DNA from: Chitinophagaceae bacterium
Lineage (GTDB): Bacteria; Bacteroidota; Bacteroidia; Chitinophagales; Chitinophagaceae
Assembly (NCBI GenBank): GCA_019638615.1
Contig: JAHBTL010000030.1
Location: 25,956 to 89,955 of the forward strand
DNA length: 64,000 nucleotides
Direction of reading: 5' to 3'
A program made the position numbers and the translations under genes. Shown here one piece after another: positions 925 to 32,722 of the stretch (position 1 is its first letter; every line of letters starts with the position of its first letter). The notes under the pieces were generated by a model. It searched no databases. It was not told the DNA's origin and saw only the letters and a program-made list of their open reading frames with translations.

Positions 925-2271
925 TTAATAATGTTGTTTCAGGTAGCTGACTTCATTCAAAAAATAGGAAGGTAGCATATCCCAGGGATGGGGATTCAGG
1001 ATATCTGATGTAACATAGATCCACCCCGCATTCCGGAAATACGCATTATCAATATATGATTTGTATTGTGTGGAGCTTACATTATAGGGAAGTACGCCAA
1101 AGTTTTCGCGGTCGTAGTTCAATGTCCATGGATCAGGATTCCATGTTTCAAAAAAGGAGCCATTCTCATAAGTAATCAATACATCAACAACAGGATCTCC
1201 GTTGTAAACTAAAAAGCTTTCCGGGACATTGGAGCCGGGATTCGCTACCACCAGTGAATGCGGATCATGATGATCATTAATATATTCATATATCTGCTGG
1301 TAGTAGGGCTCTTTACCGGGTGTCCAGTTTGTGAGGTTGGTCATCTGGTCAAGAAAAATACCTTCTATATTAGGATACCAGGCATACCACTTATCAATAT
1401 TGGACTTTACAGTATTTATAGGAATATTGCCAAAATCGGTATCTACATACCCGATGGGATGCCCACCGGCGCTAATGAAATTGTTGATAGCAGTAACATA
1501 AGCCGGATCCGCAGCAGCTCCCGGTCCGCTGGCCGGGTTAATGATCGCCCAAACACGATCCTGCTGGACTGCAGCAGCAGCATTGAGCGTATTCCAATAA
1601 CCCGGTGAAGTAACGGGGTTAAAATAAGCAGGAACCAGTACATTCAACTGATCTGTTAAACCGGTTGGCGGAGGCGTTCCGAATATAGCAGCATTTCCCG
1701 AAACAGGTATACGGCTTCTGAGGGCAAAAGAGCTATTGATATCCCAGGCGCCTACTCTTATAGCATTTGCCACTGTTCCAAGAGCTGACTTAAATACGCT
1801 TACCTCCAGCACCGTACTGCCTGCAACTGATGCCACGGAGGTGGCTCCTAAAGCGTTCCATGTAAACCCTGTTCCTGTAGAGGAAAACAGCGCTCCGTTC
1901 TCAATAAGAAAGTCGAAGCCTTCAGACGTCCACACATCTGCATTAAATCCTGTAAGGGCATTATAATCTGCATCAATAAAAAGGTCATAATAAGGCCCCA
2001 TACCGGTTCCCTGAACCAGGAAATAGAACTTTGAAGCGTCATGCGCTACTTTCAATACCGTTGTGCTTTGCCCGGTGGCAGTAGCAACAGCAGGCACTCC
2101 TGCCCAATCTGAGGCATTACCGTCAACTGTTATAGATACAAAAGACGGTGAACCCGAAGAACGCGCTGATTTAGCTGACATTGCAGCATCCTCTACAAAA
2201 CGGGCATTCTTGGTACAGGAAACGATTCCAAGTAAACCCACGATGAACGTGTTTAAAATAAGCCTTTTCAT
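925..2271 (-). CDS. Spherulin-4 / GH135-like glycosidase lipoprotein with CBM9-like N-terminal domain
   Basis: A 448-residue lipoprotein; the lipobox GIVSC ends at Cys19. Residues ~45-190 form a CBM9/DOMON-like beta-sandwich, opening with the typical ITVDGNASDW. Residues ~208-448 are a spherulin-4 domain, recognisable from LVPAYFNP, IINPASGPG and GYVDT. The founding enzyme of this family, fungal Sph3 (GH135), cleaves alpha-1,4-linked N-acetylgalactosamine in galactosaminogalactan. The likely active-site segment is GIFLDQ (Asp308-Gln309), with Glu369 in LITYENG. Sph3, as I recall it, has Asp-Glu at the first site, so Gln309 is notable. It is the last gene of the leftward locus, separated from the previous gene by 342 bp. 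It probably acts at the cell surface on a GalNAc-rich polymer; the substrate is inferred. Confidence 0.8.
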   Translation of the reverse strand: MKRLILNTFIVGLLGIVSCTKNARFVEDAAMSAKSARSSGSPSFVSITVDGNASDWAGVPAVATATGQSTTVLKVAHDASKFYFLVQGTGMGPYYDLFIDADYNALTGFNADVWTSEGFDFLIENGALFSSTGTGFTWNALGATSVASVAGSTVLEVSVFKSALGTVANAIRVGAWDINSSFALRSRIPVSGNAAIFGTPPPTGLTDQLNVLVPAYFNPVTSPGYWNTLNAAAAVQQDRVWAIINPASGPGAAADPAYVTAINNFISAGGHPIGYVDTDFGNIPINTVKSNIDKWYAWYPNIEGIFLDQMTNLTNWTPGKEPYYQQIYEYINDHHDPHSLVVANPGSNVPESFLVYNGDPVVDVLITYENGSFFETWNPDPWTLNYDRENFGVLPYNVSSTQYKSYIDNAYFRNAGWIYVTSDILNPHPWDMLPSYFLNEVSYLKQHY

Positions 2272-2613
2272 AAATTGAAGGTTTTAGTTAAAGAAAAATG
2301 TTTAGAAATTTTCCGGCAGGCATTGTGATATGACGCCATTACAATATCTTCCCAGAGAGTAAAAGGAATGTAGCTCCGGGCACAATCACCCGGTTTCTTA
2401 TAAGTTCAGGAGTTGTTTTTACAATAATCTATGACATAGTATCCTTCGGGGCACTAGTAGTGAGACGGGAGTACGGAACAGGTATAGCGCAATTTTATTG
2501 CTGGCTGTATCTTTTGATCAGTATTTTAATGTAAGCTTTGGCTGTTCAAAAAGAATAATCAATCGGTTGATATGGCTTCTTTCCATTATTCATCAATAAT
2601 TTTCACGCGGTGC
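2272..2613. other. Intergenic gap carrying one arm of a long inverted repeat
   Basis: This 342-bp gap lies between the spherulin-4 gene and the 120-residue gene. No open reading frame of note and no TAnnTTTG promoter could be identified. Its right part, from about 2544 into the end of the next gene, is copy A of the imperfect inverted repeat described separately. The size of the gap leaves room for a separate promoter for the spherulin-4 gene. Confidence 0.6.
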
Positions 2614-2650
2614 TCACAGCGGAGCAGCGTTCACAACGAATGCTTCTTTC
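2544..2650 (+). repeat. Long imperfect repeat, copy A
   Basis: About 106 bp running from GTTCAAAAA to TGCTTCTTT. It matches, in inverted orientation and at roughly 80% by eye, the segment 15352-15459. Shared blocks include CATCAATAATTTTC, GCGGAGCAGCGTTCACA and AATGCTTCTTT. The repeat runs over the last codons of the 120-residue gene, so that protein's C-terminus is encoded by repeat sequence. The two copies bracket the core of the GalNAc-type locus. Confidence 0.8.
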
Positions 2651-2976
2651 TCCTTGTTAAAATCCAGGATTTTATAAAACTCAATTTTTACCTGTCTTAT
2701 AAACGGCGCCTGTTGCGCAAATAAAGCTTCATGCGCCTCGTTTTCTTTGAACAGGTCAAGGGCTTTGCAAGCTGTTCCCATATCGGGAAATTCACACTGC
2801 CATATCAATGCGTTTACCGGTTCACCGGCAGAAAGCACCTGCATTCTTTTACCTTCAGGCAAACCCGGTTGACTTTTTTCCAGTCGTGCAAAGTCCTGCT
2901 CCAATGCCATGAAGGCTTCTTCATGGCAGGGATCGAACTGCTGGATGATGCGCATTACAATACTCATGTCTTTCAT
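2614..2976 (-). CDS. Small protein, probable dimeric alpha/beta barrel fold
   Basis: A 120-residue soluble protein with no signal peptide. The layout (strand-helix-strand, then a WQCEF strand and a helix) resembles small ferredoxin-like dimeric alpha/beta barrel proteins such as the NIPSNAP or DUF6176 type; I cannot assign it firmly. It starts 20 nt after the PIG-L stop codon and so is probably cotranscribed with the sugar-phosphate genes, which hints at an accessory role in the same pathway. The last dozen residues (EKEAFVVNAAPL) are encoded inside a dispersed repeat and are probably not part of the ancestral protein. A second Met (residue 4) is an alternative start. Confidence 0.6.
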   Translation of the reverse strand: MKDMSIVMRIIQQFDPCHEEAFMALEQDFARLEKSQPGLPEGKRMQVLSAGEPVNALIWQCEFPDMGTACKALDLFKENEAHEALFAQQAPFIRQVKIEFYKILDFNKEKEAFVVNAAPL

Positions 2977-2996
2977 TTTTTAATGATGCTCGTTCC

Positions 2997-3875
2997 TTAG
3001 CTGCTGTTTTTTCCGAAAACGTAAACCTGGTCGCAGGGCCTGCCGGTTGCAAGCAGTTCCTGCAACAGCTTTGCCCGGGTCCGTATCCCTGTTTTATACA
3101 CTTCTTCTACCTGGCTTATATAATACTTGAAAGCGTAGTGTATCATCAGCTCGGGGTCGAACTCAAAGGTTTTTACGGTAAGCGCATGGCGCCGGACAAA
3201 ATGGTATATCCTTTGTTGCTCTGCCGGAGTTGCGATGCCTCCGTAAGGTTTATCTTCCTGGAAATAGAAAGTAGCTTTGGCAGCGTCCACTGTTTCAGCA
3301 GCAACGGCTATTGCCGCTTCGCGTACAATAAAATGGTCAATGTGTTCTTTGAATGCCACGGGAAAGACCAGTGCAGTATCCTCCCTGCACGACAATTGTC
3401 TTATCCTGTCTTTCATCCTTGCAAATATTTGCTTGTCCTGCTCGTTAAAGTCTTCGTACATGCCATGCGGGAATTCCATTTCGCTGTCTTCTAAAATTTT
3501 ACCGCGAACAAAACATTCGTTTTCGCCGACAAGCTCATAAGTATAATTAAACACGCCAAGCAATTCATCCAGACAGCCCTGGTCTTCAAGCAGCCTTTTA
3601 CCTGTTGCCAGCTTGATCCTGTCTAAGCTCTGGTCTGCATTTCCGGAACCGGTCCTAGCCAGATAATTACTCCGGGAAAACAATATCTTGATATGAAACT
3701 TTTTGGTACCTAATAATCCTGCATTGCACAGCTCATTCACATAGCCTCCAAGCATAAAAAGGAAATCATCGAAGTGAGGTGAGAATACAATGATATTGGA
3801 CTCGAGGATCACTTTTTCGATTGACGTAACAGCCTCGCCTGTTCTAATCCATTTTTGTTCGATACTTTCATTCAT
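2997..3875 (-). CDS. PIG-L (LmbE) family deacetylase
   Basis: A 292-residue cytoplasmic-type protein of the zinc-dependent PIG-L/LmbE family, which removes N-acetyl groups from amino sugars and sugar conjugates. The zinc/catalytic motif SPHFDD (residues 32-37; His34, Asp36, Asp37) and the later KEHIDH (His178, His181) are both present. There is no signal peptide, so the substrate is probably intracellular. It sits 24 nt after the PfkB kinase and next to the NagB-like gene. That placement suits de-N-acetylation of an imported amino-sugar phosphate, a role classically played by AgaA/NagA, neither of which is seen here. Family is clear; substrate is inferred. Confidence 0.85.
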   Translation of the reverse strand: MNESIEQKWIRTGEAVTSIEKVILESNIIVFSPHFDDFLFMLGGYVNELCNAGLLGTKKFHIKILFSRSNYLARTGSGNADQSLDRIKLATGKRLLEDQGCLDELLGVFNYTYELVGENECFVRGKILEDSEMEFPHGMYEDFNEQDKQIFARMKDRIRQLSCREDTALVFPVAFKEHIDHFIVREAAIAVAAETVDAAKATFYFQEDKPYGGIATPAEQQRIYHFVRRHALTVKTFEFDPELMIHYAFKYYISQVEEVYKTGIRTRAKLLQELLATGRPCDQVYVFGKNSS

Positions 3876-3899
3876 TGTTTATTGTTTCAATTCTTCAAA

Positions 3900-4976
3900 T
3901 TATAGTGAACATTCATTTACCTGCCTGAAAAGGGCCGCAAACCGCTTCCCTGTGTCTGTGCTTTCAGAGAATGATCTTAATACATTTGCATTGGCGGACG
4001 GATGAATCGTATCAGGAGATGTAACAGCATAAGCAGCAAGCAGATTTCCCAATGATATAGCATCCGGTTCCGGATCTGCATGAAGGGACAGCCCGCAACA
4101 CAGTCCACAGATGGTGCCGGACAGAAAAGCGTCTCCTGCTCCGGCAGTTGATATAGCGTCCACGCGATAAGCCGGCTGATGAAAAATATCGTTGCCGGTA
4201 AAAGCATATACTCCGCCCGGTCCATCCGTTACCAAAACGGATATCGAAGGATTTTCACTGTACAATACCTGCACGCATTGCTCAATAACTTCCGTTTTCG
4301 AAACATTGGTTACCGACAGGTTCGAAATACTTTCAGCTTCATCTATATTTATAGACAGTATATCGGTTAATGCAAACCCTCCCTGTTCCCTGAAAGCAGC
4401 CACTTCACCTGAAAGCAGGGAAGCGATATTCAGGCTTTTTCGTTTTCTGCCATGCTCCAGCAGCCGGATGCGTGCATCAAGCGGCACTTCAGGCACAGAC
4501 AATACTATTTCTTTGCCGCTATGATCTGCACCGGAAAAATATTCGTCAATATCGCCTGCAGTCATCAGGGAGGAAGCGCTATTGCCGGTTGTAATATTTC
4601 CTCCCGTTTTGTCGGGGTATTGAAAGCATACGCTGAACAAAGTGCTGTACCCGGGAATGACTTTTACACCTGCCATATCCATACCCGTTGAACGCATTTG
4701 CTCAACCAGCGATTTGCCTGTTTCATCATCTCCTACTTTACCAACAGGATGCACGTCAAACCTACCCGGTGCGCCTAAAAGCGTGGCTATATAGTGTAGT
4801 ATGATATGCTGCTTGCAATAATCTTTGAACGGCAGCAATGCTCCCAGCCTGCTCTCATTTCTTCCCAGCGTATGATTTTGCTCTAAAAGAAAAAACATAC
4901 CGGAGCCAATCCCTCCTGTACCAATGATGCTTTTATACGCATAGTCTTCGGTATGTACAGCGCACAGTTTATTCAT
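3900..4976 (-). CDS. PfkB-family carbohydrate kinase
   Basis: A 358-residue ribokinase/PfkB-family sugar kinase. The signature TAGAGDAF (residues 277-284, catalytic base Asp282) and the upstream nucleotide-binding segment VTDGPGGVYAF are present. Its start overlaps the stop of the NagB-like gene in an ATGA arrangement, so the two are translationally coupled. In an N-acetylgalactosamine pathway it could phosphorylate the incoming sugar or act as a tagatose-6-phosphate kinase, which is also a PfkB-family activity. The N-terminus is somewhat longer than usual before the Gly-Gly region (GTGGIGSG, residues 19-26). Substrate specificity cannot be read from the sequence. Confidence 0.85.
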   Translation of the reverse strand: MNKLCAVHTEDYAYKSIIGTGGIGSGMFFLLEQNHTLGRNESRLGALLPFKDYCKQHIILHYIATLLGAPGRFDVHPVGKVGDDETGKSLVEQMRSTGMDMAGVKVIPGYSTLFSVCFQYPDKTGGNITTGNSASSLMTAGDIDEYFSGADHSGKEIVLSVPEVPLDARIRLLEHGRKRKSLNIASLLSGEVAAFREQGGFALTDILSINIDEAESISNLSVTNVSKTEVIEQCVQVLYSENPSISVLVTDGPGGVYAFTGNDIFHQPAYRVDAISTAGAGDAFLSGTICGLCCGLSLHADPEPDAISLGNLLAAYAVTSPDTIHPSANANVLRSFSESTDTGKRFAALFRQVNECSL

Positions 4977-5878
4977 ATGAACAGGTCTTCAAATTGAAGA
5001 TCAGGATCTTCTGAAACAGGGTGTGATGCTGTTTCCTTCGTTGCCGTGATCAATGCATCCGCATGCTCCTGCAGCAACGTTATGGGATACTCGGTCGTTG
5101 GTTCAGAAAATAAAGCAACCCTAAGAGCAGTTTGCTTCCAGGCACCGGTATCGCTGAACAGTCTTATTTTTTTTGCTGAAAGGCATTCCTTTAATCCCAA
5201 TGTAACAGACATGGGAGGAACGAACTGGTAAGCCGTACCAAATGTCCGTTGCGCCAACGCAATGATGGTATCATAATTATTTTCCTGGATGCGGATGGTT
5301 GAGTTCCTCAGATCTTCAAGCGTGATGTGGCTAAAGGGATTTCTCCGGGCCTGGTTGTATGCAATATGCCCGTCCTGTCCCCAGCCCCCGTAAGTGATAT
5401 CAACAGGCGCCTCATTGATCCTGCTTTTTATTTCGGGGATATTTTCTGCATTCAGCCAGTGACGGTTTTTAACAGGAACCGCCAGCGCTTCTTTTACCGG
5501 GCCATAAAAATGCCTTTCCATGAAACCCCGGAAATTATACGGATGTCTCCGGGGCAATTCCCTGCCCTGCCAGTCCAGGCATTCGTCCATATGAAAGACC
5601 ACCAGCTTTTGCAGGCTCACATTTTCAGCATTGACGAGGTCTGTAAACGGCTTATACCAACAGGATGGTCCACAGGGGATGATCGCCCTCGTTTCCCTGT
5701 TTTTTGCATTATTCAGTTGTATCTCATCAACCAGTTCCTGCGCCATCAATATTCCCATCGCCCGGGAATCGGCAACAATACGCAACGGTACTTTCCTTTC
5801 CGGGTGGTTCTCTAACTGGCCGGAAGGTATCTTACACCAGGTGTAAAGCTCCTTTGGAGTAATGAATGATTTTGTCAT
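4973..5878 (-). CDS. NagB-like sugar-phosphate isomerase/deaminase with altered catalytic site
   Basis: A 301-residue protein of the glucosamine-6-phosphate deaminase / 6-phosphogluconolactonase superfamily. HMDE (Asp98) corresponds to Asp72 of E. coli NagB, and GQDGHIAYNQ (Asp169, His171) to its Asp141 and His143. The next catalytic residue, Glu148 of NagB, is Gln176 here. This change could alter or abolish the deaminase reaction, or indicate another substrate such as galactosamine-6-phosphate. The gene follows the GH-D glycosidase by 33 nt and overlaps the kinase gene. No signal peptide is seen, so it acts in the cytoplasm. Superfamily is secure; reaction is uncertain. Confidence 0.75.
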   Translation of the reverse strand: MTKSFITPKELYTWCKIPSGQLENHPERKVPLRIVADSRAMGILMAQELVDEIQLNNAKNRETRAIIPCGPSCWYKPFTDLVNAENVSLQKLVVFHMDECLDWQGRELPRRHPYNFRGFMERHFYGPVKEALAVPVKNRHWLNAENIPEIKSRINEAPVDITYGGWGQDGHIAYNQARRNPFSHITLEDLRNSTIRIQENNYDTIIALAQRTFGTAYQFVPPMSVTLGLKECLSAKKIRLFSDTGAWKQTALRVALFSEPTTEYPITLLQEHADALITATKETASHPVSEDPDLQFEDLFI

Positions 5879-5911
5879 GGCTTTTAAGAATTGTGCAGGC
5901 TGTATGAAAGC

Positions 5912-7936
5912 CTACAGCGGAACGGCATCCAGTATTTTTACTTCAAATGGTTCAAGGGTAATTGTAAAATGACGGCCCTGCGCCACCGGCTGCTCCTTAC
6001 CTGTTTCTTTTCTTGCATTCGAAAATGCATAATCCGTCATTGCATGATCCGGGATATCAAACAGGCGGGCAACATCCACCTCGAAACTTTGCTTTTTATC
6101 TGAAGGATTTCTCAGGCTCACGTACCCGCCTTTTTCCGACCAGGCTGCATAGCCGTATACTTCGTCTTTTGCAGGATCGCCGCCCACCCAATGTACATCA
6201 GGCATCAGGTCTGCTTTGCTTCTTGCCCATTCAATTGCCTGCTTCAGGCAATCCCAGTTTGCCGTATTCAGCTTATGCGGGTTCACATACATTTCCTGCA
6301 GGCTTGTGCCTGTTGCAAAAAACGACCAGATCTCATCTGCTATATCCTTGTCATCCATTTCCAGCTTACCCGGAATGCCCTGGTCAGCAATGCACAGCCC
6401 GTGATACATCAATGCGCTTAAAGGGTAAAAGGGCGCCCGTTGCACTACATTCCGGTATGTCTGCCCGTCCCTGTAATTCATCCACTGCTGGCGTTTGGGG
6501 CCTTTACCGCCAAGACCGGTGTCATCTCCTGCCCGCCAGATCACATCACCGTGATACAGCCAGTAAACAGAAGGCCATGTGCCGATGGTGAGGCTCAGGA
6601 AAAGATCAGGCTTTAAAGCGCGTAATTCATGAATAAGCCGGAGCATGGCTTCCACATCTTTCTGATATTGACCGGTAACGCCACCGGTACCATTGCCTGC
6701 ACCAAGCCCGTCAAACTTAAACATGGATACATTGTATTTTTTAATGAAGTCAGCCGTTACTTCGCTGAACCGTTTGTAATAAACAGGGCCGGCTAATGAA
6801 AACCCGTTCTCATTGGTTTCGAAAGGCGGATTTTGCTTTGCGCCATATTCCAGGCGTTGCGGCTTGCGGATATCATATCCACCCCAGGGCGACATCCATA
6901 CACCGATGCCGGCCCCATATTGCAGGGCAGCATTCCTTACATTGGTAAATCCGTCCGGGAACCCTTTATGGAACTGCCAGAGTGTTTTATAATCATCCCA
7001 GCCATCATCAAACAAAAAGGCATTCATGGGAACATTTCTTTTCGTAATAAGGCTGTCGCCCCATACTTTGATCCTGTCCAGGCACAGGCTGTCGTTCAGG
7101 ATTCTGTCTGCATAAGATAGGTCGTACCAGGAATTATAATGCAGCAACTGGCGATAGGTATTTGTTCTTTCCCGCTCTAAATAGTAAAGAAACCCCCTGC
7201 GCAACTGTTTTGCAGGCGTAACGCCCCATACTGAACTGACTGCAAATGTTTCGCCGGGCACAAGCGGCAGGGCACGGGGCAACAACAGCACAGACACGGT
7301 TTTGCTTTGCTCAAATTTGCTCAATGGATTTTCCACGGCAAAGAACATCGTTTGGTATGTTACAGGCGACCCATCAACTGTGCCCTGTTTTTTTACCGGG
7401 ATGGCGGCAGGGAAACTGATCACCCGGAATTTTGTAATGTCAATTTCCTTACCGGGCGTAAAGGAAAGCGTTTGCCTGACATAATTGGAGCCGTTTCTAA
7501 GCTCCGCTTTCCATTCTACCTGTAAAGCAGTTTGAGCATTTTCCAATACTGCTGTTACCATTTTCCCATCTGCACGCCGGCCTTCTGTTCTTTCACCGGG
7601 ATCACCCGGCAGGCTGGCAGCAGTTACCTCATCCTTCAGCGTAAAATCATTGGAAGTGAGCAGGGTTCCATTGGCAAGCAGCAACGAGAACAGGGGCGTA
7701 CCTGCCGGAAGTGTTACGGCCTGTTTGTTTACTTTATCGCGGAAAGCGGCCAGCCGGATTTTTTTGTTTGCCTGCCGGATCTCCATTTTTAAAATATCAT
7801 TTTCCAGCACTGCCTGCTGCGCTTCCGACACAACGGTTGCGTTGCCCGGCTGCTTACCCAGGTATGATACCTGGGCGTTCGATATAGAGACGGTAGTGAT
7901 TGTACACAATAGTAAAATAAAGGCTTTGCGTATCAT
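5912..7936 (-). CDS. Clan GH-D (GH27/GH36-like) alpha-glycosidase, secreted
   Basis: A 674-residue protein with a signal peptide (cleavage near SNAQ, residue ~22). An N-terminal beta-sandwich (~25-250) is followed by a TIM barrel. Candidate catalytic residues match clan GH-D: nucleophile Asp409 in MFKFDG, and acid/base Asp471 or Asp472 in WRAGDD. FLFDDGWDD (residues ~308-315) is the typical substrate-binding strand. Clan members hydrolyse alpha-galactosides or alpha-N-acetylgalactosaminides. In this locus an exo-acting alpha-N-acetylgalactosaminidase working after the spherulin-4 enzyme is plausible. Homologues are sometimes mislabelled enterotoxin. Its start lies 11 nt after the stop of the PKD lipoprotein gene. 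The glycosidase call is firm; the sugar is inferred. Confidence 0.75.
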   Translation of the reverse strand: MIRKAFILLLCTITTVSISNAQVSYLGKQPGNATVVSEAQQAVLENDILKMEIRQANKKIRLAAFRDKVNKQAVTLPAGTPLFSLLLANGTLLTSNDFTLKDEVTAASLPGDPGERTEGRRADGKMVTAVLENAQTALQVEWKAELRNGSNYVRQTLSFTPGKEIDITKFRVISFPAAIPVKKQGTVDGSPVTYQTMFFAVENPLSKFEQSKTVSVLLLPRALPLVPGETFAVSSVWGVTPAKQLRRGFLYYLERERTNTYRQLLHYNSWYDLSYADRILNDSLCLDRIKVWGDSLITKRNVPMNAFLFDDGWDDYKTLWQFHKGFPDGFTNVRNAALQYGAGIGVWMSPWGGYDIRKPQRLEYGAKQNPPFETNENGFSLAGPVYYKRFSEVTADFIKKYNVSMFKFDGLGAGNGTGGVTGQYQKDVEAMLRLIHELRALKPDLFLSLTIGTWPSVYWLYHGDVIWRAGDDTGLGGKGPKRQQWMNYRDGQTYRNVVQRAPFYPLSALMYHGLCIADQGIPGKLEMDDKDIADEIWSFFATGTSLQEMYVNPHKLNTANWDCLKQAIEWARSKADLMPDVHWVGGDPAKDEVYGYAAWSEKGGYVSLRNPSDKKQSFEVDVARLFDIPDHAMTDYAFSNARKETGKEQPVAQGRHFTITLEPFEVKILDAVPL

Positions 7937-7947
7937 GATCGTTCTTG

Positions 7948-8820: not shown

Positions 8821-8841
8821 TTTATTTTGTATTGAAATCAA

Positions 8842-10254
8842 TTAATCGGTTGTGATCTTTAACTGGCAGTTGAGCTTGTTTAAGCCTTTATCTGTATATT
8901 CCACACCCGTATTGGCCATGCGTATCGAGTATTCGGGCCGGTTGTCCAGGCTTGCAGACGCATCAGCGATCTTCAGGTAAAGGTCATACGTACCGGCAGG
9001 CAGGCCTGCAAGTGATATCTTTTCATCAACAGCCAGCGTGCCGGATGGTTTGCATTTCCGGATATCTGCCGTAAGCGCAAAAGCATGTTCTGCTCCATCG
9101 GACTGGCGTTTTAAAACCAGGCTGCTGGTCTTGCGGTTGTACACAGGTGCATACCCGCTGTTCTTTAAGTTTATCTGGATACTGAGGTCTTTATCTTTAG
9201 TTACTTCACCAGGGAAACGCACACTTGCCAGGCTCAGGCGGTAACCCATATTGCGTTGAAATTCCTCAAAGCAGCCCGAGCTTTTCCAGGCATCTATGGT
9301 GGGCTTGTACCAGTTAAGATTTAAATAAGACCATCTCAGCCTTTTCATTTCATTAATGGCTTTTTCGCAGGAAGGAGTGCCCTCAAGCGGCGGGCAGGTT
9401 TCTCCACCTGCAGGCACGTATAAGGTTTCGTTGGCGATATACGTTTTGTCTGCCTCCACATCCACATACGTTCCGTAATCGGTAGCACCCGTTAAAAAAC
9501 AGTTGTTATAATGTCCCACCCTGGCGCTCCCCTGGCCGGAGTAGGCGCTGCCTGCATCAACAGGGGTTTTTGTTTCAAAAATGGCCTGCTTGATGGCCGG
9601 CGTACGCACCTGCAGCATAATTTCGGCCGGGATTGAAGCCATCATTTTACCAAGCACCTTTTTCATGTTTTCGGGAGTGGTGAGATTATTGGTAGAGCTG
9701 TGCCATTCGCCCCAGGGTCCAACAAATCCTCCCTGTAAAAAGGCTATTACATCTTTGTTCGCTTCAAAAAGTGGTTTCAACTGGTCAAGATGCATTTCTA
9801 TGGTAGATAAAGGTGCGTCCTCTTCCCCGTTGTAATGCACATACTCAATCCCTGTATAAGCAAAGCACAACACTACTTTAAGCCCTGCTTCACGCAACAG
9901 GTCAAAATCTGTCTGCATCAGGCTGAGCTGCTTTTCACTCAAAGGCGCATCCTTAAATTTTTCAAAATAGTAATTGCGATGCACCAGGCTTACCTTCTCT
10001 GTTTTCAAACGTTGCAGCTCCAGCTTGCTGAGCGGCGCTCCTTCAGAAGCTACCGTAAAGAGGTACATAAATCCCCGTTCGGGATTGGCAATGATTTCCG
10101 TTGACTCCTGGTACTGCTTTTCAACAAAGCCTTCATTTGGATCAGCGCCCTTTGAAGATTTTTTACAGGCCATCAGCAACAGGGGCGCCAATAAATAGAC
10201 GACCATTGCCGGCAACTGCCGTATCAGCAGGCGTTTATGTGTAGATTGTTTCAT
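8842..10254 (-). CDS. DUF4874/DUF4832 lipoprotein, probable TIM-barrel glycosidase
   Basis: A 470-residue lipoprotein (lipobox LLLMAC, about residue 30). It has the DUF4874 region (NPERGFMYLF onward) followed by DUF4832 (LNLNWYKPTIDAWKSSGC and a C-terminal beta domain). The central segment, with LCFAYTG and FVGPWGEWHSS, looks like the strand ends of a TIM barrel with acidic residues at the expected positions. These domains have no assigned reaction that I know of. Its position directly after susD (11 nt gap), in a locus with other glycosidases, makes a glycoside hydrolase or glycan-binding role likely. It is the best candidate here for an uncharacterised enzyme. Confidence 0.8.
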   Translation of the reverse strand: MKQSTHKRLLIRQLPAMVVYLLAPLLLMACKKSSKGADPNEGFVEKQYQESTEIIANPERGFMYLFTVASEGAPLSKLELQRLKTEKVSLVHRNYYFEKFKDAPLSEKQLSLMQTDFDLLREAGLKVVLCFAYTGIEYVHYNGEEDAPLSTIEMHLDQLKPLFEANKDVIAFLQGGFVGPWGEWHSSTNNLTTPENMKKVLGKMMASIPAEIMLQVRTPAIKQAIFETKTPVDAGSAYSGQGSARVGHYNNCFLTGATDYGTYVDVEADKTYIANETLYVPAGGETCPPLEGTPSCEKAINEMKRLRWSYLNLNWYKPTIDAWKSSGCFEEFQRNMGYRLSLASVRFPGEVTKDKDLSIQINLKNSGYAPVYNRKTSSLVLKRQSDGAEHAFALTADIRKCKPSGTLAVDEKISLAGLPAGTYDLYLKIADASASLDNRPEYSIRMANTGVEYTDKGLNKLNCQLKITTD

Positions 10255-10265
10255 GCGTTCCGGTA

Positions 10266-11735
10266 TTAATTATATCCCTGGTTCTGAATGAATTTGCCTT
10301 TGCCCTCGCTTACCGTTTTGAGGGAGAACGGAAGCACCACCTTAAACTCCTCCGTTGTTGTAGCATGTTTCACAATACGCGCTCTTTCAAGGAACTTTCC
10401 ATGCCGGATCAGGTCTGCCCGGTACTGCCCGTTCTCGCACCAGAACTCATGGCTTCTTTCTGTAAGTAACAGGTCATTAAATGCGTTGAGTGTATTATAG
10501 TCCGCTAATTGTTTATCATTCAACTGCGCTCTCCTGCGCACAATGTTTACCAACTCCATCGCTTCTGCCGCGGGGTTACCGCCTTCATTAGCAATGGCTT
10601 CTGCTTTTGACAGCAGCACATCAGCATACCGGTATACAATAATATCCACGGTAGATAAAGCGGTGGTCCGTTTGTCATCGGGATTTACTTTTAACGGTAT
10701 AGGCCCCAGGTCCATCACGTTGCCCGGGTTTGTTCTGCTGTACACTATACCATCAGTACCGGTATATTGTGTGATCAGCATTGTTTTGCGGGCATCGGCC
10801 GGTTCAAAGGAATCATAGAACCACCAGGTGCTTTGCACGGTCTGGTAGCCGCCCAGCGGTGCATAGTTCTGCGGCAGCGCATACATTTGCCAGGAGCTTT
10901 CGCTGGTGCCTTCATAATTACAGGGGATGGCCCAGATCACCTCTTTGCTTTTTTTAGCGCCATCGAGGCTCCACAGCCCAACATAATCATTGCTGAGTGA
11001 AAAATAATTATAGGCAATGATCTCATCGCAAACCTGGCGCACTTTAGCCCACTGCTTTTCATGCAGGTAAAGCCTGATCAGCACCATTTTTGCCAGTGCC
11101 TTGCTGAACCGGCCGTATTCCGCTGCCGCAGGGGCGGGAAGGTCTTTAGCCGCTTCTGTAAGATCCGCTTCAATAAATGCAACCATTTCCTCATTAGAGA
11201 GGCGCGCCAGCGGCTCTTCAACAAGCGGGTTTTTCAATACTTCCAAAGGAGCTACCACAATGGGGCCGTAAAGGTCAAAGAGATTATAACAAAGCAATCC
11301 TCTTGCACAGCGCACTTCTGCAATGGCAGCTTTTTTAACCTCCTCGTCAAGCGAAGAATTTTGGATCTGGTCAATGGTCAGCGTCATCCGGCTGATCTTA
11401 TTGTAAAAATTGTCGTAGAAATAAGTTACGCCTTCAACGTCTGTGGGCGTGTAGTTCAGTAGCGACAATTTCTGCTGGGACCCGTATTTCCCTACAAGAA
11501 TCTCGGTGGTATTATCCATCCATATCAATCCCCTTTCTGTTTGTCCGTTTATTCCATCCCACCAGGAACCGCGGAGGGGGTAGTAGCAGGCATTCACAAG
11601 GGCCTGTATATCTTCCCTGGAGTTGGGGAAAATGCTGGGATTTATTTCTGAGTAATCTTTGGAAACGAGGCGTTTGGTGCAACCCGTACCGCATATCACG
11701 AAGATCACTAAAATGGTGAAAGCTATTTTTTTCAT
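10266..11735 (-). CDS. SusD/RagB-family glycan-binding lipoprotein
   Basis: A 489-residue outer-membrane lipoprotein; the lipobox CGTGC is near residue 19. The SusD pattern is typical: a helical TPR-like core and a C-terminal region with ADVLLSKAEAIANEGG and VNIVRRRA, ending with QNQGYN. It forms the lid of the SusC transporter encoded immediately upstream (27 nt gap) and would hand oligosaccharides to it. Cotranscription with susC and the enzymes downstream is likely. Ligand specificity cannot be read from sequence. Confidence 0.92.
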   Translation of the reverse strand: MKKIAFTILVIFVICGTGCTKRLVSKDYSEINPSIFPNSREDIQALVNACYYPLRGSWWDGINGQTERGLIWMDNTTEILVGKYGSQQKLSLLNYTPTDVEGVTYFYDNFYNKISRMTLTIDQIQNSSLDEEVKKAAIAEVRCARGLLCYNLFDLYGPIVVAPLEVLKNPLVEEPLARLSNEEMVAFIEADLTEAAKDLPAPAAAEYGRFSKALAKMVLIRLYLHEKQWAKVRQVCDEIIAYNYFSLSNDYVGLWSLDGAKKSKEVIWAIPCNYEGTSESSWQMYALPQNYAPLGGYQTVQSTWWFYDSFEPADARKTMLITQYTGTDGIVYSRTNPGNVMDLGPIPLKVNPDDKRTTALSTVDIIVYRYADVLLSKAEAIANEGGNPAAEAMELVNIVRRRAQLNDKQLADYNTLNAFNDLLLTERSHEFWCENGQYRADLIRHGKFLERARIVKHATTTEEFKVVLPFSLKTVSEGKGKFIQNQGYN

Positions 11736-11762
11736 ACTTAATATTCTTTTCTGGTTTGAATG

Positions 11763-14700
11763 TTAAAAGCTGAAATTGGCGCCAATGGTATAGGTTCGTA
11801 CAAACGGGTAAGCGGCAGTGTACGAGTCCGTCTCCGGGTCCACGCCTTTGTAAGGCGTAATCACAAACAGGTTATTGGCATCAAGATGAAGGTTGACGGA
11901 GCTGAATAATTTACCCACCCATTTTTGCGGCAGCTCATAGCCTATGGAAATATTCTGCAGCCTCACAAACCAGGCATCTTCCAAAAAGAAATTGCCCGAA
12001 CCATAAGGAGACCAGCCAAAGAAAGAGCTGGGCTGGGTAGTGGAAGGACGATCAGGCGTCCAGCGGTTCTTTACCGTGCGCAGCCCGTTGTACCCGTATT
12101 TATTAATGCCGTCTGCCGATACGCCATACGTAACATAGTTAGGATCATTCATTCTCCTTCCGAACATGGAATTGAAATCAATACCAAGCGTGAAATTTTT
12201 ATACCTGAATCGGTTGGTCATTCCGGCTATAAGCCCCGGGTCGCTCGTTCCTATCATGCGGGTATCGGCATCGTCAATCCTGCCATCGGGCTTGCCTGTT
12301 CTGATGAACCTCCCATCCGGGTCTACTACAGGATTGCCGTTTGCATCCCGCTCGTAACCGTCAATATCGCTGATCTTGATCATTCCCGGCAAAAGCCCGG
12401 GCTGGGCAGGCACTGTTTCTCCTGTTTGCATAATACCATCTGACATGCGGGTGTATATAGCTCTTATCGGGTCTGTGGCATTCTGGTATATTGCCGGCTT
12501 CCAGTCAGGGGCTCTCTCTTTCCAGGTATCTTTAAATTTAGACACGGTAACGATCGTTCTCCATTCAAAATCCTTTGCCTGGAGTGTACGGAGGTTGAGG
12601 GTCACTTCAAACCCTTTGCTGCGGGTGGAGCCGATATTGGCAATAATGCTGTTGATCTCATGGTAAGAATTAAGCGGTTTGATATCCAGCAAATCGGATA
12701 TCACCTTATCATACACTTCTATGGAACCACTGAGCCTGCCACTGAGCATTGCAAAGTCGAGCCCGATATTCATCTCTGTAGTGGTTTCCCATTTCAGATC
12801 CGGGTTTTCCAGTCGTGCAGGAGAAACGCCGATCGTAATATCATCATTGCCGGAGAGATAGGCAGGATACGCCATATAAGCGGCAAAGGCGTTGCTCCCT
12901 ATAGAAGCATTACCTGTTTGCCCGTAACCGGCCCTGAGCTTAAGCTGTGAAATGGTGTTTTTCAAAGGCTCAAAGAATTTTTCCTCTGCCACATTCCAGC
13001 CCAGCGCTACAGCAGGGAATGTTGCCCATTTATGATTCCTGGCAAATACACTGGCGCCGTCGGTACGTATGCTGAAAGAAGCCATGTAACGATCCCGGAA
13101 ATTATAATTCAACCTTCCGAAATAAGAAGCGATCACATTTTCAACACGGGAAGAGCTCACTGTTTTGGTTCCTGTACCTGCATTGAGATTATTCCATAAA
13201 AAGGCGTCGGTAATAAAACCACTGTTACCTTCATTGGCGTAAGCTGTTTTGGTTTGCTGTTCGGATACGCCTGCCAGCACGTCAAGCTGGTGGGAACCGG
13301 CGATGCTTGTATTGTAATGGATCGTGCCTTCCACCAGGTAATCATTGCGGTCAATGCTCCCGATCGTGGCTCTCCCATTCTCCTTGGCGCCGTATAATGT
13401 GGTGCGTGGCAGATAATTCGATCTTGAGGTATATCCTCTGTCCAGACCGCCTTTCAGCCTGATCACAAGCCCCTTTACCGGGCTGATGTCCAGCGCGGAA
13501 TTCAGCAGCATGCGCTCAATCACGCCCTTGTCGGTAATGGTTAACAGGGAGTAGGGATTGGGCTGGGTAGCCAGCTCCGGGTTGAGCGGATAACTCCCGT
13601 CGTCATCAATGGGCAGGATATGCGGACCCTGCTGGATACCAGCCCTGATGACCCCGGAATTTTCAAACTGACCGGCGCCTAACTGGCTGTTATCGTTATT
13701 GATACGGCTTCCGGTAAGACTGATGCCCAGCTTTACATATTGGTTGAACTGCTGGTCGAGATTGCCGCGAAACGAATATCTTTTCATTGCTGAGTTGCTG
13801 ATAATGCCCTGCTGGTCGAAATAATTGCCTGAAACGAGGTATTTGGTATTTTTTGTCCCCCCGGTCACTGAAATATTGTGTTGTTGTGTACGTCCGTTCC
13901 TTGTCACCAGGTCTATCCAGTCGGTACCGCGGCCTACATTATTAATCGCATTTTGGGTATAGCGCTGATGATAGTCTCCGGCAACAGGGTTGGCCATTGC
14001 TTCTTCCACCGTTTTTGTTCCGAACGGGGCTACATTGTTCTCAAACAGCCATTGCTCCCAGGCTGCTTCATTGCGTACCTGCATCCATTCGTTCAGGGGC
14101 AGCACATCAAAAGAGTTGCTGTAGCGCTGGAAAGAAAAATTATTGGAATACTGTACCGTAGCCCTTCCTTCCGCACCTCTTTTGGTGGTGATCAATATAA
14201 CGCCATTGGCGGCGCGGGCGCCGTAAATAGAAGTGGAGCTGGCATCTTTCAGGATGTCTATAGATTCAATGTCGTTGGGATTAAAAGAATTGAGTATGCT
14301 TTGGGTGCCTGCCTGGTAACGGCCGCCATTGTCCGGCTGCTGCAGGTCTGATATAGGAAATCCATCCACCACGATAAGCGGCTCATTGCTGGCATTGATA
14401 GAGCCTGCGCCCCTGATCAGGATATCAAGCCCTCCGCCCGGCTGTGCGCTGTTTTGCCGGATCATAACGCCGGCGGCCTTCCCCTGCAGCATGTGGCCCA
14501 CATCAGGCGCGGAGGAAAGTACAAGGTCTTTTGCTTTTACGGAAGAAACAGCGCCGGTCAGGTTCTTCTTGCGCTGGGTGCCGTAACCTACCACCACCAC
14601 CTCATCCAGAGACCTGTCTTTTGCGGCAAGTATAATGTTGATCGTGGTCCTGCCATTTATATCTTCCGTAACATCTGCATAACCCGTATAGCTGAAAACA

Positions 14701-14915
14701 AGCCGGCCATTGGCAGGAGCAGTTATCTGGTAACCGCCTTCTTCATTGGTGGATGTGCCGGATGTGCCTCCCTGCACGATTACAGAAACGCCCGGAAGCG
14801 GCCTGCCGTCCTCCCCTGCCGTTACTTTACCGGAAACCGTTACCTGTTGTGCATATACCATGTTGCCTGAAATGGTGAGCAGGAATAACAACACCCGGGT
14901 CGTGAAATATTTCAT
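11763..14915 (-). CDS. SusC/RagA-family TonB-dependent transporter
   Basis: A 1050-residue outer-membrane transporter. It has a signal peptide (MKYFTTRVLLFLLTIS..., cleavage near VYAQ), a carboxypeptidase-D-like regulatory domain (~25-100), a TonB-box-like DEVVVVGYGTQ, a plug domain with the SusC signature GVILITTKRG, and a large beta-barrel ending TYTIGANFSF. It imports oligosaccharides together with SusD. The frame is open to 15077, but that GTG lies inside an operator-like palindrome and would add 54 residues before a good signal peptide, so the Met at 14915 was chosen. It is the first structural gene of the leftward operon, controlled presumably by the LacI-type gene upstream. Confidence 0.92.
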   Translation of the reverse strand: MKYFTTRVLLFLLTISGNMVYAQQVTVSGKVTAGEDGRPLPGVSVIVQGGTSGTSTNEEGGYQITAPANGRLVFSYTGYADVTEDINGRTTINIILAAKDRSLDEVVVVGYGTQRKKNLTGAVSSVKAKDLVLSSAPDVGHMLQGKAAGVMIRQNSAQPGGGLDILIRGAGSINASNEPLIVVDGFPISDLQQPDNGGRYQAGTQSILNSFNPNDIESIDILKDASSTSIYGARAANGVILITTKRGAEGRATVQYSNNFSFQRYSNSFDVLPLNEWMQVRNEAAWEQWLFENNVAPFGTKTVEEAMANPVAGDYHQRYTQNAINNVGRGTDWIDLVTRNGRTQQHNISVTGGTKNTKYLVSGNYFDQQGIISNSAMKRYSFRGNLDQQFNQYVKLGISLTGSRINNDNSQLGAGQFENSGVIRAGIQQGPHILPIDDDGSYPLNPELATQPNPYSLLTITDKGVIERMLLNSALDISPVKGLVIRLKGGLDRGYTSRSNYLPRTTLYGAKENGRATIGSIDRNDYLVEGTIHYNTSIAGSHQLDVLAGVSEQQTKTAYANEGNSGFITDAFLWNNLNAGTGTKTVSSSRVENVIASYFGRLNYNFRDRYMASFSIRTDGASVFARNHKWATFPAVALGWNVAEEKFFEPLKNTISQLKLRAGYGQTGNASIGSNAFAAYMAYPAYLSGNDDITIGVSPARLENPDLKWETTTEMNIGLDFAMLSGRLSGSIEVYDKVISDLLDIKPLNSYHEINSIIANIGSTRSKGFEVTLNLRTLQAKDFEWRTIVTVSKFKDTWKERAPDWKPAIYQNATDPIRAIYTRMSDGIMQTGETVPAQPGLLPGMIKISDIDGYERDANGNPVVDPDGRFIRTGKPDGRIDDADTRMIGTSDPGLIAGMTNRFRYKNFTLGIDFNSMFGRRMNDPNYVTYGVSADGINKYGYNGLRTVKNRWTPDRPSTTQPSSFFGWSPYGSGNFFLEDAWFVRLQNISIGYELPQKWVGKLFSSVNLHLDANNLFVITPYKGVDPETDSYTAAYPFVRTYTIGANFSF

Positions 14916-15063
14916 GGTGATTTTTTTTATTGCGGTGAAGATGTAAGGAATACGGATAGTCATTTTCAAGGGGAAGAAAGGGAGCCTGTCAGGCGCCGGA
15001 CCGGGTGAGCAGGCACCCGGAAATAACTGTACATTGAACATATGCAGATCGTTTTGAGTTAAA

Positions 15064-15079
15064 CTGTTTTCGTACACAG
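15064..15079. promoter_or_regulatory. Operator-like palindrome 1 upstream of susC
   Basis: CTGTTTTCGTACACAG is an imperfect palindrome centred on CG, the central dinucleotide typical of LacI-family operators. It shares the 11-mer TTCGTACACAG with a second site 56 bp away. It lies about 150 bp before the chosen susC start and downstream of the LacI-type gene. Likely bound by that regulator; inferred. Confidence 0.55.
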
Positions 15080-15119
15080 TACCGGAAAATTATAACAAAT
15101 GCATAAACAAACCAAATTT

Positions 15120-15135
15120 TTGTGTTCGTACACAG
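15120..15135. promoter_or_regulatory. Operator-like palindrome 2 upstream of susC
   Basis: TTGTGTTCGTACACAG contains the near-perfect palindrome TGTGT-N4-ACACA with a central CG. Its right half is identical to palindrome 1. The centre-to-centre distance of 56 bp is a little over five helical turns and would allow two dimers on a similar face or a DNA loop. Confidence 0.6.
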
Positions 15136-15351
15136 AAATTTATTTTACGATACGTGCACGATGCTTTGTGTAATTAAGCGGTAAAGCCCGGATAGCGGCC
15201 TTCTTTTCCGGGGGTTATGCTATAACGGCTCTGCGTACCAACTTCTGTGAAGCTAAAAGGACTTATACCACCGTGAGTTTTGGGTCTTAGCCAGGTCAGA
15301 AAAGTATATTTCACGCAGCCCTGCCTGCCGGCAGGCTGAAGGCGAAGTCCA

Positions 15352-15459
15352 CAAAGAAGCATTTGCTGTGAACGCTGCTCCGCAGTGAACGCCGCGGGAA
15401 AATTATTGATGAAATATTGGAAAGAAAATATATCACCCTGTTGATTATCATTTTTGAAC
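15352..15459 (-). repeat. Long imperfect repeat, copy B
   Basis: This 108-bp segment, read on the minus strand, matches 2544-2650 over nearly its whole length with scattered mismatches and a few single-base gaps. It sits between the lacI-type gene and the operators of the susC operon. It may be a dispersed intergenic element of this genome; only two copies are seen in the window, in opposite orientation around the locus core. Confidence 0.8.
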
Positions 15460-15489
15460 GCCCAAAACCCATGTTATACCCGGAAGATA

Positions 15490-16587
15490 TTATGGTAACC
15501 CCAGAACTGCAGGCTTGTCTTTATCAATAAAGTAGTTGATATTTTCTTTTGTAACGATATCCAGCGGGAGATACTTTATTTCTTCTACCTTTCTCTTAAA
15601 AACCAGGTGCTCCGTAAGCTGGTAGATGCCCCAATAGCCCTGCGCCCTTGCATTTTGATTGATCAAAAAGCTGATCCGCCCTTTTTCAAGAAAATAAAGG
15701 TTAGGAGGTATAAGGTCATAACCGATTACAGACGGGTGTTCAATATGTCTTTGTTCAAGATATTTGGCAACCTCGTAGGCCTTGCAGGTAGTAACAAAGA
15801 TGCTGGCAAGATCAGGATGGTCTTCAATAATTTCATCGAGCGGCTTTATGAATGCAGCAGTATTTGCCCGGTTCAACTGCACACTGATAATATTAAACTG
15901 GCCATCGAGGTTGTTCTGAAAAAAATAATTCCTGAATCCTTTTTCTTTTTTCTGCAAATGTGCAGAATTGCTGATGTCCTCATCTATATGGGCAATAAGC
16001 ACCGTGCAGGGCTTATGTTGTCCGTAATGGATCAATTTGCCGGCAAGCAGTCCGCTTTGATAGGAGTCCTGTCCTATATAGCTTAAGGGGTCGTACTCCG
16101 CGATCTGGGTATTAAAAAGAACAAAGGGAATGTTCATTTTTTTCCACTTCTCAAAAAAAGCAAGGCTTTCATGGTAAAAGATGGGAGACACCAGGATGCC
16201 ATCGGGCTTATTTTTTGTTAATGCATTGGCATTGTCAATAAAGGATTGCTTATCAGACGGATCAAATATATATTCCGTAACCCTGATCCCGTATTGCTTA
16301 AGGTCTTTGGCAGCCTTGGCAATGCCCTGCTGCGGTTCAAGCCAGTAAGAATCAACATGCGCATCGGGCACCAGGGCGGCAATTATATGTTTTTTGCTTG
16401 AAACAAGGGCCCGGGCCATAAGATTAGGCTCATAATGCATCTCCTGGAGCGCCTTCATCACCTTGTCGTGCTTTTTCACAGAAACATTGCCCCTGTTGTG
16501 CAAAACACGGTCTACCGTGCCAACAGACACGCCTGCTTTCAAAGCAATATCTTTTATCCGGACTACAGGATCATTGGTAATCTTCAT
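15490..16587 (-). CDS. LacI-family transcriptional regulator
   Basis: A 365-residue regulator. The N-terminal helix-turn-helix RIKDIALKAGVSVGTVDRVL (about residues 10-29) and the hinge-region text ending YEPNLMARAL are typical of LacI. They are followed by a periplasmic-binding-protein-like sensor domain (~65-340) with IIAALVPDAHVDSYW and VIGYDLIPPN. Such sensors normally bind a sugar or sugar phosphate. It lies upstream of and codirectional with the susC operon and is the obvious candidate to bind the two palindromes at 15064-15135. LacI regulators are less common than SARP, hybrid or ECF systems at Bacteroidota glycan loci. A cytoplasmic amino-sugar intermediate would be a sensible effector. 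Confidence 0.92.
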   Translation of the reverse strand: MKITNDPVVRIKDIALKAGVSVGTVDRVLHNRGNVSVKKHDKVMKALQEMHYEPNLMARALVSSKKHIIAALVPDAHVDSYWLEPQQGIAKAAKDLKQYGIRVTEYIFDPSDKQSFIDNANALTKNKPDGILVSPIFYHESLAFFEKWKKMNIPFVLFNTQIAEYDPLSYIGQDSYQSGLLAGKLIHYGQHKPCTVLIAHIDEDISNSAHLQKKEKGFRNYFFQNNLDGQFNIISVQLNRANTAAFIKPLDEIIEDHPDLASIFVTTCKAYEVAKYLEQRHIEHPSVIGYDLIPPNLYFLEKGRISFLINQNARAQGYWGIYQLTEHLVFKRKVEEIKYLPLDIVTKENINYFIDKDKPAVLGLP

Positions 16588-27819: not shown

Positions 27820-27965
27820 TATTGTAGTTTTTAGGGTTATAAAACAAGTATTATATATTTCAGGTGATATATACCTGGAAACAAAATCGCATATCATTCT
27901 CCTGTCGCTTCCCGGGCAACCTTTACGATTAAAACCATTTATCTGTACAAATACAGAATTTGCGC

Positions 27966-29516: not shown

Positions 29517-29562
29517 AATTTTCGTTTTAACATTAAATGATATTCACTGATTTAGTTTCACA

Positions 29563-32625: not shown

Positions 32626-32722
32626 AAGCAAACAATTAATAGCAGTTATTAATAATATTACAAGATAATCGTTACACATAAAGCTATTCAAAATAGGCCT
32701 ACGGTTGAATTTATACCCTACA

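Follow-up and report, generated by a model that had tools for sequence, protein, structure and literature searches.

A Bacteroidota gene cluster with a recurrent SusC-SusD-DUF4832-PKD core, predicted to serve the use of an alpha-linked galactosamine polymer

Introduction

Which polysaccharide is taken apart by the products of a leftward gene run in a Chitinophagaceae bacterium (assembly GCA_019638615.1)? The run lies on the minus strand at positions 925-16587 of a 64,000-nucleotide stretch of contig JAHBTL010000030.1, called the window below; the 7.18-Mb assembly and this contig are G000 and C24 in our numbering. From the promoter side it encodes a LacI-family regulator, SusC, SusD, a DUF4874/DUF4832 lipoprotein, a PKD-domain lipoprotein, a protein with the fold of glycoside hydrolase clan GH-D, a NagB-like protein, a PfkB kinase, a PIG-L-like de-N-acetylase, a 120-aa open reading frame (ORF) and a spherulin-4 (family GH135) protein. 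The preliminary description of this DNA, made from its letters alone, had named ten of these genes and taken them for a utilisation locus of a polymer rich in alpha-linked N-acetylgalactosamine (GalNAc). All ten are present in one run, whose two ends fall exactly where it had put them; it was silent on the 120-aa ORF (2614-2976), on the 342-bp gap (2272-2613) between this ORF and the spherulin-4 gene, and on any role for DUF4832. Adjacent susC and susD genes (10266-15077) are joined in the cluster by glycan-active enzymes (GH135, GH-D-fold, DUF4832) and by a regulator, LacI, with a sugar-binding domain, which is the make-up of a polysaccharide utilisation locus (PUL).

Biofilms of moulds and several bacteria contain the polymers galactosaminogalactan (GAG) and Pel, whose cleavage by enzymes is of interest as a means of dispersal. 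GAG is composed of galactose, GalNAc and galactosamine (GalN), whereas Pel is without galactose (PMC12054363; here and below, statements cited by PMC number refer to the available excerpts of those papers). No Bacteroidota PUL for GAG or Pel is described in the open-licence literature searched, a weak negative drawn from titles and the starts of abstracts. The fungal cell wall PUL of Chitinophaga pinensis is likewise a Bacteroidota PUL feeding on fungal polymer, but its substrates are chitin and beta-glucans instead of an alpha-galactosamine polymer (PMC10449523).

We consider it likely that the locus is a PUL for a foreign, partly de-N-acetylated polymer of alpha-1,4-linked GalNAc and GalN. 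Established here are the genes themselves, a recurrent core, conserved catalytic residues, the GH-D fold and an association with GalNAc genes in relatives; the function is predicted from these.

Results

A four-gene core recurs in relatives

The surroundings of DUF4832 genes were compared in 35 stretches (the window, L047, 20 and 11 further loci, and two plasmid regions), some of which stop at contig ends (L122 spans 4.5 kb). Matches in G686, G207 and G153, a second weak match in G520 and the plasmid matches H23 and H26-H28 were left out; in L104, L105, L127 and L128 DUF4832 was found by HMM only, with no tblastn match. As controls, 20 stretches surrounding other SusC genes were taken from 11 DUF4832 genomes, seven of which have the core: in each genome the first one or two non-overlapping SusC places among the matches listed, ordered by signature score, the core locus being skipped. 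Marker queries came from the window, L047, L086, L088, L092 and L095, which are themselves among the cases.

The core SusC-SusD-DUF4832-PKD is present in 12/35 DUF4832 stretches and in 0/20 control SusC stretches, as is a PKD homologue (12/35 against 0/20). The controls hold SusC (20/20) and SusD (14/20), and all other markers are at 0/20; one GH31 match (24%) and one LacI match (25%) are remote. Amino-sugar genes accompany the core in seven of its 12 loci (the window, G169, G476, G681, G283, G520 and G491) and are found in none of the 20 controls. In the closest core loci SusD is 60-68% and SusC 55-67% identical to that of the window. The LacI regulator shares 64.6% identity with that of G169 and 38-39% with those of G520 and G491.

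The locus of G169, from another family of the class, consists of one run with LacI, a CBM9_2 protein, SusC, SusD, PKD, a NagX-like protein, DUF4832, GalE, GH-D, NahK, a NagB-PIG-L fusion and a GlmM-type mutase; a GH31 gene lies behind the regulator, and there is no spherulin-4. The synteny expected from the preliminary description thus holds here for LacI, SusC, SusD, PKD, DUF4832 and GH-D, and fails for spherulin-4 (4/395 phylum genomes) and for the NagB-like protein (1/295 class genomes). The G169 NahK matches an N-acetylhexosamine 1-kinase of the Protein Data Bank (PDB; E 4e-69), and GalE, the mutase and the fusion (PRK02122) score above their cut-offs. An epimerase with a NahK-type kinase is what would be expected for a galacto sugar.

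In G520 and G491 a LacI regulator, a nucleotidyltransferase, NahK, an epimerase, a NagP-like transporter, NagB-PIG-L and a mutase precede the core, and a NagX-like protein and GH109 follow it. Together these genes would make up a nearly full route from GalNAc to fructose-6-phosphate. The GH109 protein of G520 (L095) matches the alpha-N-acetylgalactosaminidases 6t2b (7e-92) and 2ixa (4e-67). G681 carries GH109 and GH31, the latter matching the GH31 alpha-galactosidase 8j50 (E 1e-191) and being 59% identical to the GH31 beside the G169 locus; its relatives (49-59%) are found in L164, beside that locus, and in L099, L103 and L152, three stretches that have DUF4832 but lack PKD. G476 has AgaS, a kinase, a class II aldolase and GH36, and in G355 AgaS, GatZ/KbaZ, PfkB and an aldolase stand ahead of the DUF4832 gene, with no SusC or SusD. 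The window locus has no GH109, GH31 or NagX-like gene.

NagX-like proteins, below the NCBIfam cut-off, are encoded in 5/12 core loci. NagX has been proposed to acetylate periplasmic glucosamine (PMC9007349); by analogy these proteins, if they act in that way, would re-acetylate free galactosamine, which fits a partly deacetylated substrate.

A second copy of the core, compact in form, is found in the same genome as the window (L098, G000:C18, 8622-15920), with SusC and SusD 65-66% identical to the window's and, by eye, an ECF sigma/anti-sigma-like pair ahead of it; four other genomes of the genus have the same core (L118-L121). One stretch of Prevotella sp. oral taxon 299 (NC_022111, L152) combines SusC (51%), SusD (47%) and DUF4832 with a NagX-like protein and a relative of the GH31 alpha-galactosidase; PKD is lacking, and this oral bacterium might feed on a Pel-type polymer of plaque bacteria.

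The DUF4832 protein and its link to Pel

The DUF4832 domain of the window protein scores 194 bits (Pfam cut-off 29.2). Two glutamates, E182 (G-x-W-G-E) and E284 (G-G-E-T), are invariant in 18 aligned DUF4832 sequences and form a candidate catalytic pair. A DUF4832 protein of the Streptococcus intermedius pel operon, SIR_1591, has a TIM barrel predicted ahead of the domain; as a recombinant protein it disperses Pel-dependent aggregates with an activity comparable to that of PelA, and its deletion gave no aggregation phenotype (PMC12345266). This is the sole report of a DUF4832 activity in the literature searched, and the present locus would extend the role of the domain if the proposed function is right. 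DUF4832 genes are also contiguous with streptococcal and clostridial pel clusters (PMC7112168), and a DUF4874-DUF4832-dockerin protein of a Ruminococcus is named in PMC7480376. SIR_1591 and the window protein have the domain in common, are of similar length (468 and 470 aa) and are both located outside the cytoplasm; the former accompanies Pel synthesis in a producer, whereas the latter accompanies SusC/SusD uptake. DUF4832 is the strongest single link to Pel.

A DUF4832 model computed from the single sequence without alignment was too poor (pLDDT 43.6) and was left unused, and the DUF4832 profile matched none of the solved chains. In the same genome, a paralogue with DUF4832 barely exceeds the Glyco_hydro_42 cut-off (24.7 against 21 bits). 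The domain is found in 18/395 phylum genomes, in 9/295 class genomes (7 above cut-off; this draw overlaps the phylum sample) and, as a homologue, in 7/12 genomes of the genus; no relative was found in viral contigs.

The GH-D-fold protein

The sixth gene had been described as a clan GH-D glycosidase. Its product has no Pfam match above cut-off (one at E 0.034) and no NCBIfam match, and the GH36 profile Melibiase is not among its matches at E <= 0.1. The predicted structure (pLDDT 88.6) nevertheless confirms the assignment by showing the clan GH-D fold of GH27, GH31 and GH36, a fold that includes alpha-N-acetylgalactosaminidases; by Foldseek the model is closest to GH36 alpha-galactosidases. 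With GH27 and GH36 the protein shares the fold, and it has K-x-D and R-x-G-x-D motifs in positions similar to those of the nucleophile and the acid/base. It differs from them in that identity is 11-14% and the profile match is short and local.

Relatives were collected in 42 loci (a GH-D cluster of 37); in some the ORF calling put GH-D in the wrong frame. L052 and L053 were searched by tblastn only. In Luteibacter yeojuensis (L023, 3834-11863) a cluster that includes AgaR (above cut-off), AgaS, PfkB kinases, a class I aldolase and an amidohydrolase closes with the GH-D relative. In Rhodanobacter sp. C06 (L013, 328-11932) the GH-D relative lies near a matching cluster, which has an AgaS family protein and the same kinds of kinase, aldolase and amidohydrolase. 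Neither locus supplied query proteins, and both are probable alpha-GalNAc utilisation clusters of gammaproteobacteria. G025 has no core gene around its GH-D gene.

In Paraburkholderia and related bacteria (L020, L028 and 22 more loci) a GH35 beta-galactosidase gene accompanies that of the GH-D relative, in most cases convergently. A Draconibacterium metagenome-assembled genome (L005, 493-11871) carries a 54% identical GH-D relative with SGNH-like and transglutaminase-like proteins, recognised by eye, and a NagP/GluP-like transporter.

The GH135 protein

The Spherulin4 Pfam domain spans residues 209-441 of the last protein of the run (133.6 bits, cut-off 30.2) and in a search of PDB chains matches solved Sph3 (5d6t/5c5g, E 2e-6). 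Seven sequences were aligned (the window protein, that of G523, four plasmid-record proteins and the Sph3 stretch): D307 and E368 align with the catalytic Asp and Glu222 of Sph3 and are invariant in 7/7. The roles of these residues are those given for Sph3 in PMC12054363, where the Asp is printed as 196. Since both equivalents are kept, the GH135 protein may well be an active enzyme. It belongs to the same Pfam family as Sph3, the endo-alpha-1,4-N-acetylgalactosaminidase of Aspergillus, and has the two catalytic residues in common with it. Unlike Sph3 it is a bacterial lipoprotein with an extra N-terminal region, within a PUL, and has Gln for Glu next to the catalytic Asp, as has the Embleya protein.

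Residues 36-173, the N-terminal region, are similar to the tail of a DUF4832 protein in the relative L086. The idea that DUF4832 and spherulin-4 are joined in L086 as a "Rosetta stone" fusion was rejected: Pfam finds only DUF4874-DUF4832 and a secretion tail there, and the match covers residues 36-173, outside the spherulin-4 domain.

The Pfam family PF12138 to which the domain belongs occurs in the 4/395 phylum genomes given above; the other three loci (L083-L085) have no further gene of this locus nearby, so that a full synteny group of spherulin-4, GH-D, PIG-L and NagB was rejected. Of the matches to spherulin-4 in the phylum sample the best, L083 (G523:C79), lies on a 9.7-kb contig alongside a KdpD gene and may be a contaminant. 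GH135 is also reported in woodchip-reactor bins (PMC11653725).

The intracellular enzymes

NagB-like, PfkB and PIG-L proteins had been proposed to form an amino-sugar pathway. Such a pathway is putative and may not be needed. The NagB-like protein scores 75 bits, below the TIGR00502 cut-off of 237, and matches E. coli NagB (1cd5) at E 2e-13; it keeps the MDE and DGHIA motifs, while the Glu of AFNE is replaced by Gln. Of the active-site residues of E. coli NagB (D72, D141, H143, E148) the first three are kept and the last is Gln. The best NCBIfam match of the PfkB protein is ribokinase TIGR02152, at 72.6 bits, below its cut-off. The PIG-L protein retains HxDD and HxDH, presumably the metal-site motifs. 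By family score both labels, NagB-like and PIG-L, are less secure than the preliminary description implied. In the PKD/CBM9-like protein, PKD holds by Pfam, and the CBM9-like part is seen by eye and in homologues, not by Pfam.

AgaS and tagatose-bisphosphate aldolase are absent from the window locus. In L104 (G000:C67, 9710-15482), elsewhere in the same genome, a remote DUF4832 gene has AgaS, PfkB and a class II aldolase next to it; the DUF4832 product also matches Glyco_hydro_42, and L104 is possibly a second GalNAc locus of this genome. The genome also encodes a single NahK homologue, around which no SusC/SusD is apparent. GalNAc use therefore need not depend on the NagB-like, PfkB and PIG-L trio. 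The Aga (AgaR, AgaS, kinase, aldolase) and NahK-GalE pathways are found beside the same core or beside GH-D relatives, whereas the window locus has neither and contains PfkB, PIG-L and a divergent NagB-like protein instead. Two adjacent divergent NagB-like proteins, annotated as hypothetical, occur on a plasmid of Haloarcula sp. GH36 (L150, 6877-8735) near a GlpR regulator and an aldolase.

Discussion

Proposed function

Judging from relatives of shown activity, the GH135 and DUF4874/DUF4832 surface lipoproteins would cut the polymer. SusD and the PKD protein would hold the fragments and SusC import them, as is usual for their families. A periplasmic GH-D-fold enzyme may then trim terminal alpha-linked GalNAc, GalN or galactose, as its fold and neighbours suggest, and LacI would sense the released sugar. 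In the cytoplasm the sugar may be phosphorylated, deacetylated and deaminated or isomerised by PfkB, PIG-L and the NagB-like protein; alternatively, the AgaS/PfkB/aldolase route or NahK from elsewhere in the genome might act on it.

An alpha-GalNAc/galactosamine polymer remains the best reading of the substrate: the core recurs with GalNAc catabolism and with GH109 and GH31, and GH-D relatives lie with AgaS clusters in two gammaproteobacteria. Fungal GAG is the likelier polymer, since the GH31 alpha-galactosidase in relatives points to galactose in the substrate, and bacterial Pel is a serious contender.

Evidence against and other readings

Several observations weigh against this reading. Five of the seven core loci with amino-sugar genes, the window included, supplied queries, so the control is partly circular and the independent part of the association is small: without the query-supplying loci it is 2/7 (G283, G491) against 0/20 (Fisher p 0.06, as against 0.0002 when they are counted), nor can related genomes be taken as independent. 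The other 5/12 core loci, compact and of the same genus, one of them the second copy L098, have no amino-sugar markers nearby. The AgaS, NagX-like and NagP-like matches are below curated cut-offs, as is PIG-L (19.2 bits, Pfam 28.2), its motifs notwithstanding. GH135 and the NagB-like protein are nearly unique to this genome: GH135 is absent from the other 34 of the 35 DUF4832 stretches and occurs among 58 relatives solely here, and the single hit of the NagB-like protein among the 295 class genomes (E <= 1e-30) is its own genome. GH-D and DUF4832 occur in other contexts too. GalNAc genes do not always accompany DUF4832, which in Spirosoma, for instance, lies next to GH43, and 19/35 DUF4832 stretches have no PKD, amino-sugar marker or GH109; a GH35 beta-galactosidase gene is present in 24/42 GH-D loci and AgaS in only 2/42. 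The link to SIR_1591 is by shared domain, not by direct sequence comparison, and the GH31 argument for GAG is not drawn from the window's own locus. Finally, in the plasmid collection the NagB-like protein has its nearest relative (38.5%) in Vibrio nigripulchritudo, together with a ribokinase, a nucleoside hydrolase and an adenosine deaminase; by analogy with this nucleoside operon, PfkB and the NagB-like protein could be a phosphosugar pair of another specificity.

Part of this evidence would also suit a PUL for some other alpha-galactose-containing glycan, with GH-D as an alpha-galactosidase, the amino-sugar-like genes serving another purpose and DUF4832 as a general glycosidase family. The proximity of the GH-D model to GH36 alpha-galactosidases, the GH35 neighbours, the GH31 alpha-galactosidase adjoining two core loci, the GH43 neighbour in Spirosoma and the Vibrio ribokinase operon all point that way. 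We nevertheless find this quite unlikely, given the recurrence of GH109, NahK, AgaS and NagB-PIG-L with the core, the position of GH-D beside AgaR/AgaS in two genera, and the excerpts of PMC12054363, which give GH135 solely as a galactosaminidase family. Use of GalNAc-containing glycoprotein O-glycans of mucin type, with GH135 in a secondary role, is very unlikely. NahK, GalE and GH109 also serve O-glycan use, and the GH-D fold includes alpha-N-acetylgalactosaminidases; yet the locus has two candidate endo-hydrolases of polymer type, the precedent for DUF4832 is Pel, and Pfam found no sulfatase, fucosidase, GH101 or GH129 in ten locus proteins and ten of relatives, a scan that took in part of the neighbours.

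Remodelling of the organism's own exopolysaccharide is highly improbable, although GH135, GH166 and DUF4832 proteins are found elsewhere in biosynthetic clusters, according to the excerpts available. SusC and SusD are uptake parts, and PelG (PF16933) was found in 0/11 core-holding genomes (among 14 control genomes it matched in one, Thermotoga maritima), no search being made for a GAG-like polymer produced without PelG. Both points favour a foreign substrate, and the polymer degraded by the predicted PUL is probably foreign.

Significance

There is about an even chance that SusC-SusD-DUF4832-PKD defines a Bacteroidota PUL family for GAG- or Pel-type polymers with interchangeable intracellular GalNAc routes, in which DUF4874/DUF4832 would be the signature endo-hydrolase and a new glycosidase family, and the GH-D-fold protein with its relatives (42 loci) a further new clan GH-D family acting on alpha-linked galactosamine. 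The partly unique gene set of the window is less surprising than the recurrence of the core, the tie to a proven Pel hydrolase, the placing of GH-D next to Aga clusters and the interchangeability of the GalNAc routes. If the prediction is true, Bacteroidota recycle GAG or Pel; the DUF4832 and GH-D-fold proteins, their GH109 and GH31 partners and the surface binding proteins would be candidate enzymes and binders, and the four-gene core would be a genomic marker for organisms feeding on such matrices.

Gene coordinates and neighbouring regions

Table 1. Features of the locus, from the promoter side (positions in the window).
Feature	Position	Strand	Matches and remarks
LacI-family regulator, Peripla_BP_4 sensor domain	15490..16587	-	Pfam LacI 5e-16, Peripla_BP_4 3e-39
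SusC-like TonB-dependent porin	11763..15077	-	SusC/RagA TIGR04056 8e-249
SusD-like surface glycan-binding lipoprotein	10266..11735	-	Pfam SusD_RagB 3e-22
DUF4874/DUF4832 lipoprotein, candidate surface endo-hydrolase of GalNAc polymers	8842..10254	-	Pfam DUF4832 3e-57, DUF4874 9e-44
PKD-domain lipoprotein, CBM9-like C-terminal part (by eye), putative glycan-binding	7948..8841	-	Pfam PKD_4 2e-13
Clan GH-D-fold glycosidase, predicted periplasmic exo-enzyme on alpha-GalNAc/GalN or alpha-Gal	5912..7936	-	
NagB-like phosphosugar deaminase/isomerase	4973..5878	-	TIGR00502 75 bits; 4-bp overlap with kinase gene
PfkB/ribokinase-family sugar kinase	3900..4976	-	Pfam PfkB 1.8e-22
PIG-L-like de-N-acetylase, predicted cytoplasmic	2997..3875	-	Pfam PIG-L 19.2 bits; HxDD and HxDH motifs
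120-aa ORF	2614..2976	-	20 bp behind PIG-L gene; no Pfam match
GH135/spherulin-4 lipoprotein, candidate surface endo-alpha-1,4-N-acetylgalactosaminidase	925..2271	-	Pfam Spherulin4 1.1e-38

The GTG start listed for SusC is probably too far upstream. By eye, lipoprotein-like signals start the SusD, DUF4832, PKD and spherulin-4 proteins, and the GH-D protein has an ordinary signal peptide. Promoter and terminator patterns occur at about chance frequency (34 against 29.9 and 15 against 18.5, respectively); given the 342-bp gap, the spherulin-4 gene may be a separate transcript.

Outside the locus, the window encodes a protein with a CBM9_1 domain at 61300-62409. A neighbouring cluster at 25925-32691, probably for a beta-glucan, encodes an AraC regulator and a GH16 enzyme, and its two large ORFs are possible susD and susC genes.

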